Part shown: positions 1,162 to 42,101 of the stretch, one piece after another
Position numbering within the stretch: the first letter of the stretch is position 1
Layout: every line of letters begins with the position of its first letter
Assembly: GCF_900105315.1 (NCBI RefSeq)
Contig: NZ_LT629766.1
Location: 3,472,001-3,536,000, forward strand
Direction of reading: 5' to 3'
Length of the DNA stretch: 64,000 nt
DNA from: Brevibacterium siliguriense
GTDB taxonomy: Bacteria > Actinomycetota > Actinomycetes > Actinomycetales > Brevibacteriaceae
Made by a program: the position numbers and the translations under genes
The notes under the pieces: model-generated
Databases searched by the model: none
Seen by the model: the letters and a program-made list of their open reading frames with translations, nothing else
Told to the model about the DNA's origin: nothing

Positions 1162-1229
1162 CTCAGTCAACGCGAAACTCGAAATAGTCGTCGCCAGTGA
1201 CGACTATTTCGAGTTTCGCGTTGACTGAG
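1162..1229. repeat. Perfect 31-bp inverted repeat
   Basis: Left arm 1162-1192 and right arm 1199-1229 are exact reverse complements around a 6-nt centre. The arms contain CGCGAAACTCGAAATAG and are more AT-rich than the surroundings. The element starts 32 nt after the aldehyde dehydrogenase stop, so it could act as a bidirectional terminator, but no T-run follows and the arms are much longer than a normal terminator stem. It could instead be a dispersed palindromic repeat; no second copy was noticed in this window. Confidence 0.85.
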
Positions 1230-35141: not shown

Positions 35142-37250
35142 TCAGCTTCTGCCGTGGCCCTTGCCTCCGCCGTTTCCGTGGCCCTTGCCGTTTCCGTGGC
35201 CGTGGCCTTTGTCCTTGCCTCCGCCTTTGCCCTGGCCCTTGATGACCTGGACGACGGTCGGGCGCGGCAACGCGGCCACTCCCTTGTTGACATCGGTGGA
35301 GTCGACGTAGTCGGGGAACTGCGAATGCTGGTCCGCGTATGATCCGTCTTCGCCGGGGTGCTGGACGGCGACGAAGGCCGAGCGGTACTCGTCGTGGATG
35401 AGCGGTCCGCAGACCTCGGCTTCACGCGGCACGGACAGGAACTGTTCGACCCGCCCTCGCTGTTCGCCTTCGATCGTGACCTTGAACAGTCCGTCGCAGT
35501 AGCCGATGCCGTCGGGGGCGCCGTCGGTGGAGATCCACAGATTGCCGGCCGTATCGAAGGCGACGTTGTCCGGGCAGGAGATCGGTGAGACCTGGTCGGC
35601 CGGGAATCCGGAGAAGTACGTGGCGTCGCCCTGCTTCGGGTCGCCGCAGACCAGCAGCAGAGTCCAATCGAAGTCCGTTCCGGTGTGGTCGCCGGAGCGT
35701 TCGGTGATCTCGACGACATGGCCGTCGCGGTTCTCCGTGCGCGGATTGGCTTCGTCGGCTCCGGCCTTGCCGGAGGTTCCGCGGTCGGAGTTGTTCGTGC
35801 AGGCGACGTAGATGCGTCCGTTGACTGGATTGGGTTCGACGTCCTCGCAGCGGTCCATCTTCGTCGGTCCGACTTTGTCCGCGGCCAGACGGGTGTTGAC
35901 GAGGACCTCGTCGACGGAGAATCCGGACACCTGCGACTTGCCGTCCTTGACCAGCGGCAGCCACTGTCCGCTGCCGTCGAATTCTCCGTCCGAGGGCACA
36001 TCACCGCTGCCGTCGATCTCGGACTTCGGGGAGTTGCCGGTGAACTTCGCGACGAAGAGGTCGCCTTCGGTCAGCAGCTTCTTGTTGTGCTCGCGGTCGC
36101 CTTCGACGAACGTGTCCTTCGAGACGAACTTGTAGAGGTAGTCGAACTTCTCGTCGTCACCCATATAGGCGACGGCGTGACCGGAGTCGGAGATCGTGAC
36201 GTTGGCGCCCTCGTGCTTGAACCGGCCCATGTTCGTGTGCTTGACGGGGGTCGATTCCGGATCCCACGGGTCGACCTCGACGATCCAGCCGAAGCGGTTC
36301 GCCTCATTGGCGTATCCGGGCTTGTTCGTGTCGAAGCGGTCGACATCGTTCTCCCAGCCGTTGGCCGAGTCTTCGCTGTCGAGTCCGTAGCGCTTGTCGG
36401 CTGCCGAGGTGCCCTGTGCCTTGAAGTAGGAGTTGAAGTTCTCCTCACCGGAGACGACGGTGCCCCACGGAGTGAGACCGCCGGAGCAGTTGCCCAGTGT
36501 GCCCTGTGCCTTGTCGCCCTGCGGGTAGTCCTTCGTCCGCAGCAGGTCGGAGCCGGCGGCAGGTCCGGTGAACTCGTATTCGGTGTCGATGAGGAAGCGA
36601 CGGTTCTTCTTCCCGTTGACGTCGACCGACCACGGGGAGTTCTTGTGGCGGCGTTCGAGTTCGACGACGGTGAGCCCGTGAGCCTGACGGCTGATGGCGC
36701 GTTTGTCGGCCGCGGCCATCGACTCCGGGTACATGATCTCGTCGTTCGTGTACTCCTGGTTGGCGAACAGCACTGCCCGATTCTCGTCGACCTCGTCGAC
36801 CTGGATGGAAAGGAAGTCGTTGTTGTACCCGAATTGGCGTCGCTGCGCTTCGGGGCTCTGGTTCTCCGGATCGAACTTCGGGGAGTCGGGGAACAGCGGA
36901 TCGCCCCAGCGGACGATAGGGTGCCAGGAGTAGCCCTTCGGCACGATGAACCTGTCGACCTCGTGGTGGATGGGATCGATGGCGGAGAACTTCAAAGTGC
37001 CGTGTCCGGCCGCCGCGGCACTGCTGGCCGTCGGGCTGGGAGCGGTGGTGACTGCGAGCGCCAGAGCTCCCGCGGCTGAGGCTCCAAGGACGGCACGGCG
37101 GCTGAGCTTAGCGTCGACGATGTCGCGGAAGTAGCCGTTCGACGAGGTGTTGCAGGTGGCCTTGAGGCATGCGTTGTCGCACTTGAGTGCGCAGGTCACG
37201 GCGCTGCGCTTACCGCGCACATGATCGGCCATCGGCAGGAACGTTCTCAT
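35142..37250 (-). CDS. phoX: PhoX family phosphatase, Tat-exported
   Basis: Extracytoplasmic calcium/iron-dependent alkaline phosphatase family (DUF839) releasing phosphate from esters. The 702-residue protein has the Cys-rich leader common in actinobacterial PhoX (CALKCDNAC), a twin-arginine motif SRRAVLGAS near residue 51 and a hydrophobic stretch (AAGALALAV). Family core sequences include GNCSGGLTPWGTVVSGEENFNSYF and GWIVEVDPWDP. The C-terminal ~30 residues are Gly/Lys/His low complexity. ATG 37250 follows GGAGAGAATCG. A PHO-box-like direct repeat lies 120 nt upstream. Confidence 0.92.
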   Translation of the reverse strand: MRTFLPMADHVRGKRSAVTCALKCDNACLKATCNTSSNGYFRDIVDAKLSRRAVLGASAAGALALAVTTAPSPTASSAAAAGHGTLKFSAIDPIHHEVDRFIVPKGYSWHPIVRWGDPLFPDSPKFDPENQSPEAQRRQFGYNNDFLSIQVDEVDENRAVLFANQEYTNDEIMYPESMAAADKRAISRQAHGLTVVELERRHKNSPWSVDVNGKKNRRFLIDTEYEFTGPAAGSDLLRTKDYPQGDKAQGTLGNCSGGLTPWGTVVSGEENFNSYFKAQGTSAADKRYGLDSEDSANGWENDVDRFDTNKPGYANEANRFGWIVEVDPWDPESTPVKHTNMGRFKHEGANVTISDSGHAVAYMGDDEKFDYLYKFVSKDTFVEGDREHNKKLLTEGDLFVAKFTGNSPKSEIDGSGDVPSDGEFDGSGQWLPLVKDGKSQVSGFSVDEVLVNTRLAADKVGPTKMDRCEDVEPNPVNGRIYVACTNNSDRGTSGKAGADEANPRTENRDGHVVEITERSGDHTGTDFDWTLLLVCGDPKQGDATYFSGFPADQVSPISCPDNVAFDTAGNLWISTDGAPDGIGYCDGLFKVTIEGEQRGRVEQFLSVPREAEVCGPLIHDEYRSAFVAVQHPGEDGSYADQHSQFPDYVDSTDVNKGVAALPRPTVVQVIKGQGKGGGKDKGHGHGNGKGHGNGGGKGHGRS

Positions 37251-37369
37251 CGATTCTCTCCTCAGTATCGTGTCGTTTTCTCCCTCCGCCGCCCACGATC
37301 CACAGGGGTCGGAGCCGGGAGGGTTCACCCGATCGAGACTGTCACCGCCAAGCGGCCCTGGAACTACCC

Positions 37370-37391
37370 GTCGGTGAACTGTCGGTGAACC
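37370..37391 (-). promoter_or_regulatory. PHO-box-like direct repeat (PhoP site) upstream of phoX
   Basis: On the minus strand the sequence reads GGTTCACCGAC followed at once by AGTTCACCGAC: two 11-nt direct repeats with a shared GTTCACC core. Streptomyces PhoP boxes consist of such 11-nt GTTCACC-type repeats. It is 120-141 nt upstream of the phoX start. Another GTTCACC-like stretch occurs at 37321-37330. Phosphate control is inferred from this match and from the gene product. Confidence 0.7.
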
Positions 37392-37463
37392 CAGAAGGTC
37401 GAATGAGTGTCCCGTCCGCTGATCCCGACCCTGCCCCCGGAGCTCAGCGAAGGGCTCCTGCGG

Positions 37464-38225
37464 TCACCCGAAGTCGACGAGGGCGAGCACTCCCGGGGCG
37501 AGGAATCCGACGGCGTCGATGATGATATGCGCCCACACCAGCGGCATGAGTCTGCCCTTGCGCAGGAAGTGCCAGCCGAAGATGATGCCCATGGCGACGT
37601 TGCCGATGAACGGGCCGATGCCTTGGTAGAGGTGGTAGCTGGCACGGAAGAGCGCCAGGGAGATGATGATCGGCCAGAGTCCGAAGCCCAGCTGCCGCAG
37701 TCGCAGCGCCCCGAATCCGAAGATGATCACCTCTTCGACGATTCCGTTCTTCGCGGCCGAGAGCAGCAGCACGGGGATCGTCCACCAATGATCGCCGAGG
37801 TTGGACGGCTGGATCTCCGCCGTGATCCCCAGCACCCTGCCGCCCGCGTACACACCGAGGGTGCCGATGCCGATGATGAGGAAGATGAGGACGCCGTGGC
37901 CGAGGTCGCCCCGTCGGTGCCCGTCGACTCCGAGTCGGATCGGCAGCGGCTGGGCTGGTCGGTCTCGACTGAGCAGGTAGATCGCGAGGGCGACGGGGAC
38001 GAGGGTGAAGCCGATGTCGAGAAGCTGGTAGATGAGGTCGAAGCCCGGCCGGGGCGAGATCGAGGTGTTGAGTTTCGCCTGGGCATCGCTGATCGGTCCG
38101 CGGGTGGCGATGTCGGCCAGGCGCACGATCGCGTAGACGGCTGACTGACCCAGCGACAGGGCCGCAATGAGACCGAGCTCGAACCACAGGCGCTTTCTCT
38201 CCTGTGGTTCGAGCTCGGTCGTCAT
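37464..38225 (-). CDS. CPBP family intramembrane glutamic endopeptidase
   Basis: A 253-residue membrane protein with about seven hydrophobic segments. The CPBP/Abi signatures are visible: paired Glu in GIVEEVIIFGFGALRLRQ (about residue 160), FRASYHLYQG, and HIIIDAVG near the end. Family members process CAAX-like or other membrane substrates, or protect against bacteriocins; the substrate is unknown. Codons 3-18 encode a perfect 20-bp hairpin (38171-38220) in the mRNA just after the start, which could limit translation. Confidence 0.85.
   Translation of the reverse strand: MTTELEPQERKRLWFELGLIAALSLGQSAVYAIVRLADIATRGPISDAQAKLNTSISPRPGFDLIYQLLDIGFTLVPVALAIYLLSRDRPAQPLPIRLGVDGHRRGDLGHGVLIFLIIGIGTLGVYAGGRVLGITAEIQPSNLGDHWWTIPVLLLSAAKNGIVEEVIIFGFGALRLRQLGFGLWPIIISLALFRASYHLYQGIGPFIGNVAMGIIFGWHFLRKGRLMPLVWAHIIIDAVGFLAPGVLALVDFG
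38171..38220 (-). repeat. 20-bp perfect inverted repeat inside the CPBP gene start
   Basis: Arms 38171-38190 and 38201-38220 are exact reverse complements with a 10-nt loop. In the mRNA the stem begins at codon 3, and an AGGAGAG stretch lies at the loop edge. Such a long perfect stem is rarely found in coding sequence and could act as a translation or transcription attenuator. Confidence 0.8.
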
Positions 38226-38249
38226 GAACTCAACTCTAGCCGGGACGGC

Positions 38250-41200
38250 TCAGTGTTTGGGTTCACCGTTCCCGTCGTCGCGGCGCGGATTCTGACTGCG
38301 CAGGGTGAAATCCGTTTCCGCCGCATCACCTCTATCCGCGTCGGCGTCCCGTCCGTCGTTGACGGTCAGTCCGTCATCGACGCGGTCGGCCGGGGCTGCT
38401 TCATCCCACGCCGAGGCGGTCCTGCCCGAGTCCGCGGATGTCGAGTCCGCAGTCGGTGCGGCTGCCTCGGTGGACGCCTCCCCCTCTGTCTGTGTCCGGA
38501 GGTCACCGGCACCGGCGCCCGCCCCGGCGGGAACCGTGGCGGTCTCCCGCTGGCTCGACCGGGCTTCGGCTGCGTCGAGGACCTCTCCGCGGGCCATGTT
38601 CTTCACGTGCTTCTTCTCGGCCCGGCGTTCCTTCACTCCCTCGAGCAGCAGGTAGAGCACGGGCACGAGGATGAGCGTGAGCAGCGTCGAACTGACCAGG
38701 CCGCCGATGACGACGATCGCCAGTGGCTTCGAGATGAACACTCCCCCGCCGGTCAGGCCCAGAGCCATCGGCAGCAGCGCGAAGATCGTGGCGGCCGCGG
38801 TCATGAGGATCGGACGATAACGCAGCCGGGCGCCGTGGACGATGGATGTGCGCAGATCGACCCCGCGGACGCGGAAGTGGTTGATGAGGTCGATGAGCAC
38901 GATCGCGTTCGTGACCACGATGCCGATGAGCATGAGCAGACCGATCATCGACGTCAGCCCCAGCGGAGTGTCGGTGATGAGCGAGAGCGCAACCGAACCG
39001 GTGGCCGCGAACGGAATCGAGACCAACAGGATCAGCGGCTGCAGCAGCGACTTGAACGTGGCGACCATGATGACGAACACGATGAGGATCGCGGCGAGCA
39101 TCGCCAGTCCCAACTGCGAGAACGCTTCGTTCTGCTCCTGGGTGGCACCGCCGGTGTCCACGGACACGGTGTCGGGCAGGTCCACCTCGTCGAGGGCGGA
39201 CTGCACCTCGGTCGATACCGCTCCGAGGTCATCACCTTCCGGAGTCACGGACACGGTGGTCGAACGCTGCGAATCCGTGTGGCGGATCGTCGGAGCGGTC
39301 TTGACTTCCTTGACGTCGGCGACGTCATCGAGTTCGATGAATCGCGGCTCCGCAGTCACGGGAGCGCCCGCGTTCGGATCGCCTCCAGCGGCTCCACCGG
39401 CGGCTCCGGCTCCTCCAGCGCCCCCGCCAGCACCACCGGCTCCCCCGGCGTCGCCCGAACCACCGGGGCCCCCTCCGGCACCACCGGCTACTCCGGCGTC
39501 ACCTGAACCGCCGGCGCCGCCTGCCGCACCTGCACCGGCTCCGCCGGCAGGTGCCGTCTGTTCCGGCTTGCCCGGGATCTTGAGTTCGCGCAGCTTCTCC
39601 ACGGTGTCGGCGTTGCGGTCAAAGAGGAGCACCGAATGCGAGACATCGTCGATGACGACCTCACCGATCTGCTGACCATGCATGGCCCGCTGCACATACT
39701 GGCCGATGGACGCCTCGGTGAGATTCTCCTCAGCGGCCTTCTCGTGATCGACCTTGACCTCGATCACGGGCTGGACAGCAGCGATATCGCTGGTCACCGA
39801 CTGCGCCGTGGACACGCCTTCGAGCTTGTCGCTGACCTTGTTCGTCGCGTCCTCGAGTTCTTGCGCGTCGGTTGCCGTGAGCGTGACGTCGATCGTCTGC
39901 GCGCCGGGAGTCGAGCTCTGGCTCGCCACTTCGACGTCACCTGCACCATCGAGGTCGTCGAACTGCTTCTGCAGATCTGCGGAGATCGACTGCGCCGAGA
40001 CTCCGGACTTCGTATTGACGATATACGTGCCCGTCAGGGACGAATCATCGGTGAAGCCGAACGTCGTGCCGCCCAGCGACAGTTGATAGTTGTCGATGTC
40101 GGAGGCATCGGCGAGGATGTCCTCGACCTTCTTCGCCTGCTCGGATGCTTCGTCGAGGTCCGTGCCCGGGGCGAAGGTCTGCGAGATCTGCAGGGAATCC
40201 TGCCCGGTGTCGCCGAAGAGTTCGGTCTTCAGCTGAGGAATCATCGCTCCCGTGCCTGCGAGGACGAGCACGGCCACGAGGATCATGACGATCGGGTGCT
40301 TCGTCGAGAACCCGATGACCGGCATATAGGTCTTCTGCAGACGCGTCACCGGCGAATGCATTCCGGCGAGTTCGTCGACTTCCTCCGTACCGTCTTCGGA
40401 TTCGCCGTAGCGCGGACTGCCCACGGCGATACCGGTCGGTACGGACTGTCGGGTGGACTCGCCGCTGTCGCGGAGCCCGATGTCCTCGGCTTCGGCACCG
40501 GCGGCGACGAGGTCGCGCTTCTTGTCGGCCTTCTTCGCCACCTTCTTCTCTGCCCGCCACTGCGCCTGCATCGACTTACGGCTGCGTCGGATCTCCGCCT
40601 TCTCCGCGCGGGTGAGCTTGACCTTCGCTTCCCGCTGACGCAGGAACCAGTAGGCGAGGACGGGCACGATCGTCAGCGCCACGAACAGGGACGAGAGCAG
40701 GGCGATCGTCGCGGTCAGGGCGAAGGGCCGGAACATCTCGCCGGTCTGCCCGGTCACGAACGCCAGCGGCAGGAACACGGCCACCGTGGTCAGGGTCGAC
40801 GCGGTGATGGCCCCGGCCACCTCAGAGACGGCTGCGAGGATGTTGGAGAATTTGTCGCCGCCGGAGGCATGGCGTCGCCGGATCGCTTCGATGACGACGA
40901 TGGAGTCGTCGACGACACGGCCGACGGAGATCGTCAACGCACCGAGGGTGAGCATGTTGAGGGTCTCTCCGCCCATCCACAGACCGATCATGGCGATGAG
41001 GAGGGAGAGCGGGATGGAGATAGCGGTGATGATCGTCGCCCGCACCGACAGCAGGAAGACGAGGATGACGAGGACTGCGAAGATCAGGCCGAGACCACCC
41101 TCGTTGAGCAGGTCGTGGATGGACTGCTCGATGAACGGCGCCTGGTCGAACGCGGAGACGAACTCCGCGTTGTCGCCCATCATCTTCTCGAGTTCGGGCA

Positions 41201-42101
41201 GCTTGTCGGCCACCGCGTGTGAGACGTCGACGGTGTTCGCGTCGGATTCCTTCATCACCGACACGGACAGCGAAGGCTGCCCGTTGGTGCGCGAGATCGA
41301 TTCGACCGGCTCGTCGACGAGTTTCACGTCGGCGACGTCGGAGACCTTGATCGGTCCGTCCTTGCCGGAGATTACGAGGCCCTTGATCGCATCGATCGAG
41401 CGGATGCGCGTGCCGACCTCGACCGGGGCGGTGCCGTCGGTGCCCTTGAGTTCACCCGCCGAGGTGGGGACGCCGTTGGACTGGAGGATTCCGGCCACCT
41501 CGTCGAGGTTGGCTCCTTCGTCCTCGAGGTCGTCACGTCGAATGCTGATCTCGACCTGCTTGGTCTTCGCTCCGGCGATCTGCACCTGGGAGACGCCGTC
41601 GACTTTCTTCAGCTCCGGAACGACTAAGTCTTCGAGATTCGCGGCCAACTGCTCTTCATCGGCATCGGAGGTCACGGACAGGGCGAGCACCGGAATGTCG
41701 TCGGTGCCCATCATCATGACGTTCGGTTCGACTCCGTCGGGCAGGCTCGGCTGGACTTGGGAGACGGCGCGCTGCAGGGCTTTGACGACGTCATCGGAGT
41801 CGTCACCGTACTTCGTGCTCACGGTGATCTGCGAACTGCCCGCCGAGGATGTCGAGGTCATGTCCTCGACTTCGGGCAGTGCGGTCAGCGCACCTTCGAG
41901 GGGGTCGGTGACCTCGGATTCGACGGCCTCCGGGGTGGCACCCTCATAGGAGGCGGTGACCGTAGCCTGCGGGTTGTCGAGGGATGGGAAGAGCTCTTGT
42001 TTGAGGGCACCGGCGCCGATGACGCCGAAGATGATGGCGACGACGGAGATGAGCGCGATGAGCGCCCGGTTCTGCAGACTCAGCCGGGTCAGGAAACTCA
42101 C
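38250..42101 (-). CDS. RND-family efflux permease (HAE1/SwrC-like) with long insertions
   Basis: A proton-driven multidrug or lipid exporter of 1,283 residues. TM1 (LIALISVVAIIFGVIGAGALKQELFPSLDNP) and the TM4 proton-relay motif GRVVDDSIVVIEA are typical; TM10-12 include FVIMVATFKSLLQPLILLVSIP. Three additions enlarge it: a ~100-residue charged cytoplasmic linker (RAEKAEIRRSRK onward, about 495-600), a Gly/Ala repeat insert (about 845-915), and an acidic C-terminal tail of ~110 residues. The start is GTG at 42101, chosen by alignment of MSFLTRLSLQNRALIA; no clear ribosome-binding site. No periplasmic adaptor gene is adjacent. Confidence 0.9.
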   Translation of the reverse strand: MSFLTRLSLQNRALIALISVVAIIFGVIGAGALKQELFPSLDNPQATVTASYEGATPEAVESEVTDPLEGALTALPEVEDMTSTSSAGSSQITVSTKYGDDSDDVVKALQRAVSQVQPSLPDGVEPNVMMMGTDDIPVLALSVTSDADEEQLAANLEDLVVPELKKVDGVSQVQIAGAKTKQVEISIRRDDLEDEGANLDEVAGILQSNGVPTSAGELKGTDGTAPVEVGTRIRSIDAIKGLVISGKDGPIKVSDVADVKLVDEPVESISRTNGQPSLSVSVMKESDANTVDVSHAVADKLPELEKMMGDNAEFVSAFDQAPFIEQSIHDLLNEGGLGLIFAVLVILVFLLSVRATIITAISIPLSLLIAMIGLWMGGETLNMLTLGALTISVGRVVDDSIVVIEAIRRRHASGGDKFSNILAAVSEVAGAITASTLTTVAVFLPLAFVTGQTGEMFRPFALTATIALLSSLFVALTIVPVLAYWFLRQREAKVKLTRAEKAEIRRSRKSMQAQWRAEKKVAKKADKKRDLVAAGAEAEDIGLRDSGESTRQSVPTGIAVGSPRYGESEDGTEEVDELAGMHSPVTRLQKTYMPVIGFSTKHPIVMILVAVLVLAGTGAMIPQLKTELFGDTGQDSLQISQTFAPGTDLDEASEQAKKVEDILADASDIDNYQLSLGGTTFGFTDDSSLTGTYIVNTKSGVSAQSISADLQKQFDDLDGAGDVEVASQSSTPGAQTIDVTLTATDAQELEDATNKVSDKLEGVSTAQSVTSDIAAVQPVIEVKVDHEKAAEENLTEASIGQYVQRAMHGQQIGEVVIDDVSHSVLLFDRNADTVEKLRELKIPGKPEQTAPAGGAGAGAAGGAGGSGDAGVAGGAGGGPGGSGDAGGAGGAGGGAGGAGAAGGAAGGDPNAGAPVTAEPRFIELDDVADVKEVKTAPTIRHTDSQRSTTVSVTPEGDDLGAVSTEVQSALDEVDLPDTVSVDTGGATQEQNEAFSQLGLAMLAAILIVFVIMVATFKSLLQPLILLVSIPFAATGSVALSLITDTPLGLTSMIGLLMLIGIVVTNAIVLIDLINHFRVRGVDLRTSIVHGARLRYRPILMTAAATIFALLPMALGLTGGGVFISKPLAIVVIGGLVSSTLLTLILVPVLYLLLEGVKERRAEKKHVKNMARGEVLDAAEARSSQRETATVPAGAGAGAGDLRTQTEGEASTEAAAPTADSTSADSGRTASAWDEAAPADRVDDGLTVNDGRDADADRGDAAETDFTLRSQNPRRDDGNGEPKH
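39430..39525 (-). repeat. Two 48-bp tandem units within the RND gene
   Basis: Units 39430-39477 and 39478-39525 are near-identical and encode GGSGDAGVAGGAGGGP and GGSGDAGGAGGAGGGA-type repeats within a Gly/Ala-rich insert of the second extracytoplasmic domain. They are prone to slippage, so copy number may vary between strains. Confidence 0.75.

Follow-up and report, generated by a model that had tools for sequence, protein, structure and literature searches.

Can the first codons of a bacterial gene carry, besides the start of a protein, an RNA structure that is maintained in its own right, and if so, what would such a structure do there? The question is raised by a gene of Brevibacterium siliguriense (genome of 4.02 Mb, one contig) that lies in the window, i.e., the whole stretch of 64,000 nucleotides that was analyzed, and in which a long inverted repeat begins with the sixth nucleotide of the reading frame.

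Structure and position of the hairpin

The gene encodes a CPBP/Rce1-type membrane protein that matches PF02517 (E 3.3e-12), scores below the cut-off in NCBIfam and is 96% identical to a relative from B. epidermidis. It is present in all 57 genus genomes searched. The features discussed below are the following.

38250-42101, minus strand: upstream RND-type permease gene; RND models match, below their curated cut-offs
37464-38225, minus strand: gene of the CPBP/Rce1-type (PF02517) membrane protein (253 aa), with the hairpin in its first codons
38233-38238, minus strand: TAGAGT, located 7 nt before the ATG and presumed to be the -10 element of a leaderless promoter
38222-38225, minus strand: AUGA of the gene start; in the predicted fold it pairs, at the hairpin base, with nt 56-59 (38167-38170)
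38201-38220, minus strand: arm 1 (5' arm in the mRNA), encoding T-E-L-E-P-Q; inner part conserved in 32 of 32 genomes
38191-38200, minus strand: loop of 10 nt, purine-rich, encoding E-R-K-R with flanking bases
38171-38190, minus strand: arm 2 (3' arm), encoding L-W-F-E-L-G; its bulk is also found in six hairpin-less relatives
38161-38170, minus strand: the 10 nt 3' of the stem, UCAUUGCGGC, with 3 U and without a U-tract

The sequence-only reading of this DNA had pointed out a perfect hairpin of 20 bases in the first codons, and the two arms (38171-38190 and 38201-38220) are indeed 100% complementary over 20 bp, 10 nt apart. The stem covers nt 6-55 of the open reading frame on the minus strand (arms at nt 6-25 and nt 36-55), and its first base is the last base of codon 2 (ATG at 38225, minus strand), not part of codon 3 as first proposed. 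The number of U in the 10 nt 3' of the stem is 2-4 in all 32 hairpin-bearing genomes and 3 in 26 of them. Neither a canonical U-tract terminator nor a sigma-70 consensus promoter was reported at the hairpin site, and Rfam gave no match at gathering score in window positions 36000-40000, i.e., no known riboswitch or RNA family.

The hairpin is not due to chance. At the composition of the window, an independent-base estimate puts the expected number of perfect stems with 20 bp or more and a loop of 3-14 at about 3e-6 per 64 kb, and among 5000 synonymous recodings of the same 25 residues, one reached 19 bp and none 20 bp. With gene starts taken from a rough caller, no other of 671 sampled genes has so long a perfect stem within its first 75 nt (the runner-up has 14 bp), and the first 60 nt of the gene fold at -45.2 kcal/mol, the lowest value of 654 genes (mean -15.1, sd 5.2). 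The strong mRNA fold beside the start codon that had been anticipated is predicted by folding as well.

Conservation and selection on pairing

A hairpin with the inner 17-bp core occurs in 32 of 32 close relatives (own genome counted; 81-100% protein identity). Core mismatches are limited to one each in L017, L113 and L021. The three basal pairs are not conserved, being unpaired in 8-10 of 27 distinct sequences. The 20-bp stem is therefore perfect here, but conservation is confined to its inner 17 bp. Within the core, A-to-G changes in arm 1 predominate and lead to G-U pairs. Double changes that keep the pairing also occur: CTC/GAG is replaced by TTC/GAA in L023, and GAA/TTC by GCA/TGC in L029 and L030, where two amino acids are altered, one per arm.

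The pairing, consensus-fold and null analyses used 30 of the 32 genomes, L112 and L113 being left out. Across 15 core pairs in these 30 genomes, a single cell out of 450 is unpaired. For a codon-matched null, every stem codon was swapped for a column with an identical consensus codon, drawn from the RND-type, CPBP and downstream genes in these 30 genomes (pool of 940 columns, restricted to columns in which 26 or more of the 30 genomes agree in the amino acid). This null gives a mean of 36.6 unpaired cells per 450 (sd 12.0) and a minimum of 4 in 20,000 draws; as no pool column has CCA as consensus, the observed CCA column was retained, and the null is therefore favored. Third-position changes in nine stem codons amount to 9 versus 18.6 by amino-acid matching (P 0.006), with the restriction that synonymous change is as scarce in a 15-codon window from codon 206 of the same gene. 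The covariation score lies above that of column shuffles (2 of 500 shuffles reach the observed value), and the percentage of paired cells shows no excess over them (57 of 500 do so); this last result and the equally low 15-codon window speak against selection. Selection on RNA had been suggested from the sequence, with conservation and compensatory substitutions in relatives as the proposed check. The core kept in every one of the 32 genomes, the double changes in L023 and L029/L030, the fewer synonymous changes and the codon-matched null all agree with it, and an RNA hairpin under selection inside the gene start is well supported and, in our judgment, very likely. Codons 2-19 of the CPBP gene thus probably have a dual job, as they also encode an RNA hairpin that is kept by selection on pairing.

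The strand on which the structure acts can be addressed with the same cells. Read as mRNA, 1 of 450 cells is unpaired, versus 12 when the other strand is read, which favors sense RNA. By itself, the surplus of sense over antisense pairing does not reach significance against the null (P 0.21), because codon preference alone favors A-to-G there, and the other-strand reading with its 12 unpaired cells is also better paired than the null (P 0.0003). The latter result, together with the near-perfect inverted repeat close to a promoter-like motif, would suit a DNA palindrome acting as a protein-binding dyad, or an antisense RNA, as the functional unit. We regard this as highly improbable, since the 11 G-U cells are mismatches in DNA and L024 folds at -40.2 kcal/mol in the sense orientation versus -27.0 kcal/mol in antisense. 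A spacer of 10 nt between arms of 17 bp is moreover unusual for a protein dyad.

Distribution and origin

Related genes that lack any hairpin and are expressed unchanged had been named as the observation that would speak against a role. Of the 57 genus genomes, 25 indeed lack this hairpin, but their gene starts are built differently as well. A covariance model with strict filters matches the CPBP locus only: 32 genomes score at least 98 bits, whereas among the hairpin-less genomes 8 score 29-58 bits at the same gene start and 17 are without match. In the six nearest hairpin-less relatives (L114-L119), most of arm 2 is present (LWFEL or one change) and arm 1 is absent; therefore, arm 1 seems to be fitted to, or copied from, arm 2. 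The resemblance between arm 2 and the T-arm of tRNAs (GGTTCGA) was dropped as a lead because arm 2 is the older LWFEL coding sequence. In a tree built without the first 21 codons, the hairpin-less casei group stands beside the hairpin genome L017 (88/93, branch not starred), and one reading of this tree is hairpin loss in the casei group. A single gain of the hairpin is possible.

A mobile or repeated palindrome was considered and rejected, as the own genome contains a single copy of the paired pattern. A search with one arm at up to 3 mismatches gave 19 + 33 matches by strand (both arms included), compared with 23 + 16 for a reversed control. The G006 assembly holds three hairpin copies, two of them on separate contigs of 8.5 and 13.8 kb. 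With one copy per genome in all other cases and an arm 2 that consists of older coding sequence, the inserted palindrome that had been offered as an option is not supported.

Arm 1 may have originated by template switching, a mechanism that is described for RNA genes (PMC8794818). Taken further, mutational bias could account for the whole pattern: a template switch would have made arm 1 as an inverted copy of arm 2, and later switches would keep the arms matched. The presence of arm 2 but not arm 1 in six hairpin-less relatives would fit, as would the two double changes, one of which comes with two protein changes. Nevertheless, this explanation is improbable. G-U pairs persist uncorrected in 11 of 450 cells, another clade has a different hairpin at the same position, and template switching may explain where the hairpin came from without explaining why it was retained.

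The junction with the upstream gene and the type of start

The stop codon of the RND-type gene lies 24 nt before the CPBP ATG and 29 nt before the stem, and the distance from stop to ATG is 24-25 nt in 29 of 30 genomes (35 in the remaining one). Within this gap, a promoter-like motif is found 7 nt before the ATG in all 32 hairpin genomes, either as TACAGT (n = 20) or as TAGAGT (n = 12). Among the 654 sampled genes of this genome, the distance of TANNNT to the called start has a clear maximum: 39 genes carry the motif at 6 nt and 13 at 7 nt, compared with 0-5 genes at each of the other spacings from 0 to 29 nt, as would be expected if these genes are leaderless. The CPBP start shows both hallmarks of this type, a -10-like TANNNT 6-7 nt upstream and no Shine-Dalgarno site, with a weak GGGA or AGGA near the ATG in some hairpin-bearing members. 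It hence looks leaderless, the 5' end being predicted from these motifs; a literature search for mapped transcript starts in Brevibacterium found no relevant report.

Outside the hairpin group, no TA(G/C)AGT-type motif is present at in-frame candidate starts near the junction in the 24 genus genomes checked (24 of 25, as L138 is without RND match), where the contrast of 32 versus 24 concerns related genomes and not that many independent events. The casei group has purine-rich, Shine-Dalgarno-like sites (GAGG / GGAGG) and GTG starts, and in several other outside-group genomes the candidate CPBP starts overlap the RND stop.

A second Brevibacterium clade (L125, L127, L128, L129, L137 and L138) carries a different hairpin at the same RND-CPBP junction. 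In five distinct sequences (L128, the same as L127 in that stretch, was left out), 4 of its 18 consensus pairs are changed on both sides somewhere and several are broken. Its z-scores range from -2.6 to -4.2, compared with -2.7 for another fold in the hairpin-less casei member L114. This second hairpin is moderately supported. It keeps a constant distance to CPBP, and its distance to the RND stop varies (14-59 nt); the true start codon is uncertain there.

Comparable hairpins in the same genome

In the window and 40 further stretches of 20 kb (864 kb in total; 736 genes by a rough codon-usage caller), 82 hairpins pass the same rule, the CPBP hairpin included. The majority, 63 of 82, are intergenic and lie 0-90 nt past a stop codon (median 27 nt), where only 3.6% of 20,000 random positions fall. 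The others comprise 12 further intergenic hairpins, 4 near a gene start and 3 near a gene end. None of the 82 is internal to a gene, versus 67% of random positions. Their tails are poor in U: 5 of 86 tails have at least 5 T in 8 nt, and the mean is 2.7 U in 10 nt (86 tails) versus 3 for the CPBP hairpin. Based on their position and on the literature, these hairpins are presumably terminators. Mycobacterial terminators have been described as U-less and located within 50 bp of the stop codon (PMC12288462), and those of Streptomyces as the longest and most stable, U-poor, with 3-4 U (PMC12207403). U-less termination is disputed, and an in-vitro study cited in PMC5335608 found the U-tract necessary.

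Two other palindromes were noted in passing. A perfect 31-bp hairpin without U-tract occupies window positions 1162-1229, about 30 nt past a called gene end. The own genome also contains a dispersed palindromic repeat that forms 25-29-bp hairpins with the shared sequence ctacc(c/t)gacggcggc(c/t)cagc..., mostly beside gene 3' ends; copies are located at the following positions.

L152:3050-3111, dispersed palindrome
L152:11771-11826, dispersed palindrome
L159:4163-4220, dispersed palindrome
L158:15660-15715, dispersed palindrome
L167:124-179, dispersed palindrome

Hairpins were also encountered at the starts of other genes. A cdsA-like gene of the own genome (98.6 bits, below the model cut-off), which overlaps the end of frr, has a 12-bp hairpin at nt 37-64 (L161:15457-15484; C1 1915457-1915484). 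In 30 genomes fetched out of 56 with the gene, 348 of 360 cells are paired, with pair-keeping double changes in L208 and L218. The aat gene has a hairpin from the G of its ATG on (L185:4011-4063, minus strand; C1 2604011-2604063) of -38.1 kcal/mol, followed by TTTTG in the own genome. Its outer 8 bp are invariant in 30 of 30 genomes fetched out of 57, which alone is no proof of structure. These two cases suggest that start-embedded hairpins may form a class that can be searched for. By contrast, aroA was set aside as a weak candidate, as its first 66 nt range from -15.8 to -38.1 kcal/mol in 30 genomes and the stem is lost in some. In another family of the order (G060, L150), a 23-bp stem with one mismatch and unrelated sequence spans -39 to +13 of the aligned start of the CPBP homologue, and in a distant relative (L080) a strong stem overlaps the aligned start.

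Possible roles of the hairpin

The hairpin is placed where this genome puts its presumed terminators, and therefore these codons probably combine coding with a transcription stop or brake. It has the features of a U-poor terminator: a stem of 20 bp, 3 U in the next 10 nt and a position 29 nt past the RND stop. On balance, we lean towards a U-poor terminator or attenuator of the actinobacterial kind that serves the upstream RND-type gene. A polymerase that has passed the RND gene would go on to transcribe the stem; since the terminating ribosome halts before reaching it, the stem could fold, and many transcripts would end at this point. The CPBP gene would be served mainly by its own leaderless promoter, TA(G/C)AGT at 7 nt before the ATG. 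As transcription from this promoter likewise runs through the hairpin, only read-through would contribute to CPBP output. Attenuation, as brought up in the sequence-only reading, thus still leads, but the upstream RND-type gene and the habit of this genome to place hairpins behind stop codons had been missed. A location inside a coding region need not be prohibitive, as for an E. coli terminator 30 bp after the AUG, translation is reported to cost only about 10% of its efficiency (PMC4824070). Besides the dispute over U-less termination, other points count against a terminator. The presumed CPBP promoter is upstream of the hairpin, and a strong terminator would therefore silence CPBP too; furthermore, the hairpin of the second clade keeps its distance to CPBP and not that to the RND stop, as far as its start can be placed from sequence.

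The same second-clade observation would fit a hairpin that acts on the CPBP mRNA itself, as the 5'-terminal stem of a leaderless transcript. Such a stem could hide the AUG and keep the translation rate low, provide a cut site for RNase III or shield the 5' end from decay. The lowest 5' folding energy of 654 genes agrees with this, and so does the coincidence of the hairpin with a leaderless-type start. In addition, the predicted consensus fold joins AUGA to nt 56-59 in all 30 rows, a pairing that is probably uninformative because codons 19-20 are old protein sequence. Yet the 51 other genes with TANNNT at 6-7 nt fold ordinarily (mean -14.4 kcal/mol for all 52, next lowest -27.4), and the start hairpins of aat and the cdsA-like gene occur at starts that are not of the CPBP leaderless type. 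With a stem of about -45 kcal/mol over the AUG, almost no translation would be expected, yet the protein has been conserved; and hairpins of similar quality in this genome gather behind stop codons. We consider an action on the CPBP mRNA the main rival reading, but a distinctly weaker contender than termination of RND transcripts.

A more speculative, rather doubtful idea is that of a translation-gated insulator, in which it is solely the starting point of the RNA that decides whether the same codons serve as terminator or as gene start. In read-through RNA from the RND gene, an internal AUG without Shine-Dalgarno site would be ignored and the hairpin would stop RNA polymerase. On RNA that begins at the leaderless AUG, a 70S ribosome would take arm 1 before arm 2 emerges, and transcription would continue. 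If this is true, start-embedded hairpins, those of the cdsA-like gene and aat too, would make up a general layer of regulation in Brevibacterium.

One normally looks for terminators between genes, whereas here a terminator-type hairpin is found in the first codons of the next gene and has been kept across 32 species-level genomes, once along with two amino-acid changes. Should it terminate transcription, transcription units would be separated inside coding sequence, with a leaderless start and a transcription stop sharing the same bases. It would also bear on the dispute whether U-less hairpins end transcription in actinobacteria. Among the titles and abstract openings of the open-licence literature, no report was found that describes a conserved hairpin of the terminator type within the first codons of a leaderless gene.

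Comparison with known systems

The nearest known systems are the U-less, 'I-shaped' terminators of mycobacteria and the U-poor terminators of Streptomyces, which are likewise described as long stable hairpins with few U, at most 50 bp past the stop codon (PMC12288462, PMC5335608, PMC12207403). Compared with these descriptions, the CPBP hairpin, for which termination is proposed by analogy, overlaps the initial codons of the following gene and has been conserved along with protein changes, and a presumed leaderless promoter lies between stop codon and hairpin. A single example, T-tsaD in the alr-groEL1 operon of M. tuberculosis, is also a U-less hairpin after an operon gene and is thought to split sub-operons (PMC5335608). 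It is described there as downstream of tsaD, whereas the CPBP hairpin is inside the first codons of the following gene. Attenuators and terminators in early coding sequence share with it that, according to PMC4824070, a terminator placed within 100 bp of the beginning of a coding region can be active although the region is translated. That system, as presented, is an engineered phage terminator with a U-tract in E. coli, while the CPBP hairpin is natural and U-poor. Finally, the CPBP hairpin recalls those produced by template switching (PMC8794818), in that one arm looks inversely copied from an older one and that double changes keep the pairing. In that account such hairpins are described for RNA genes, whereas the CPBP hairpin is part of a protein-coding sequence.
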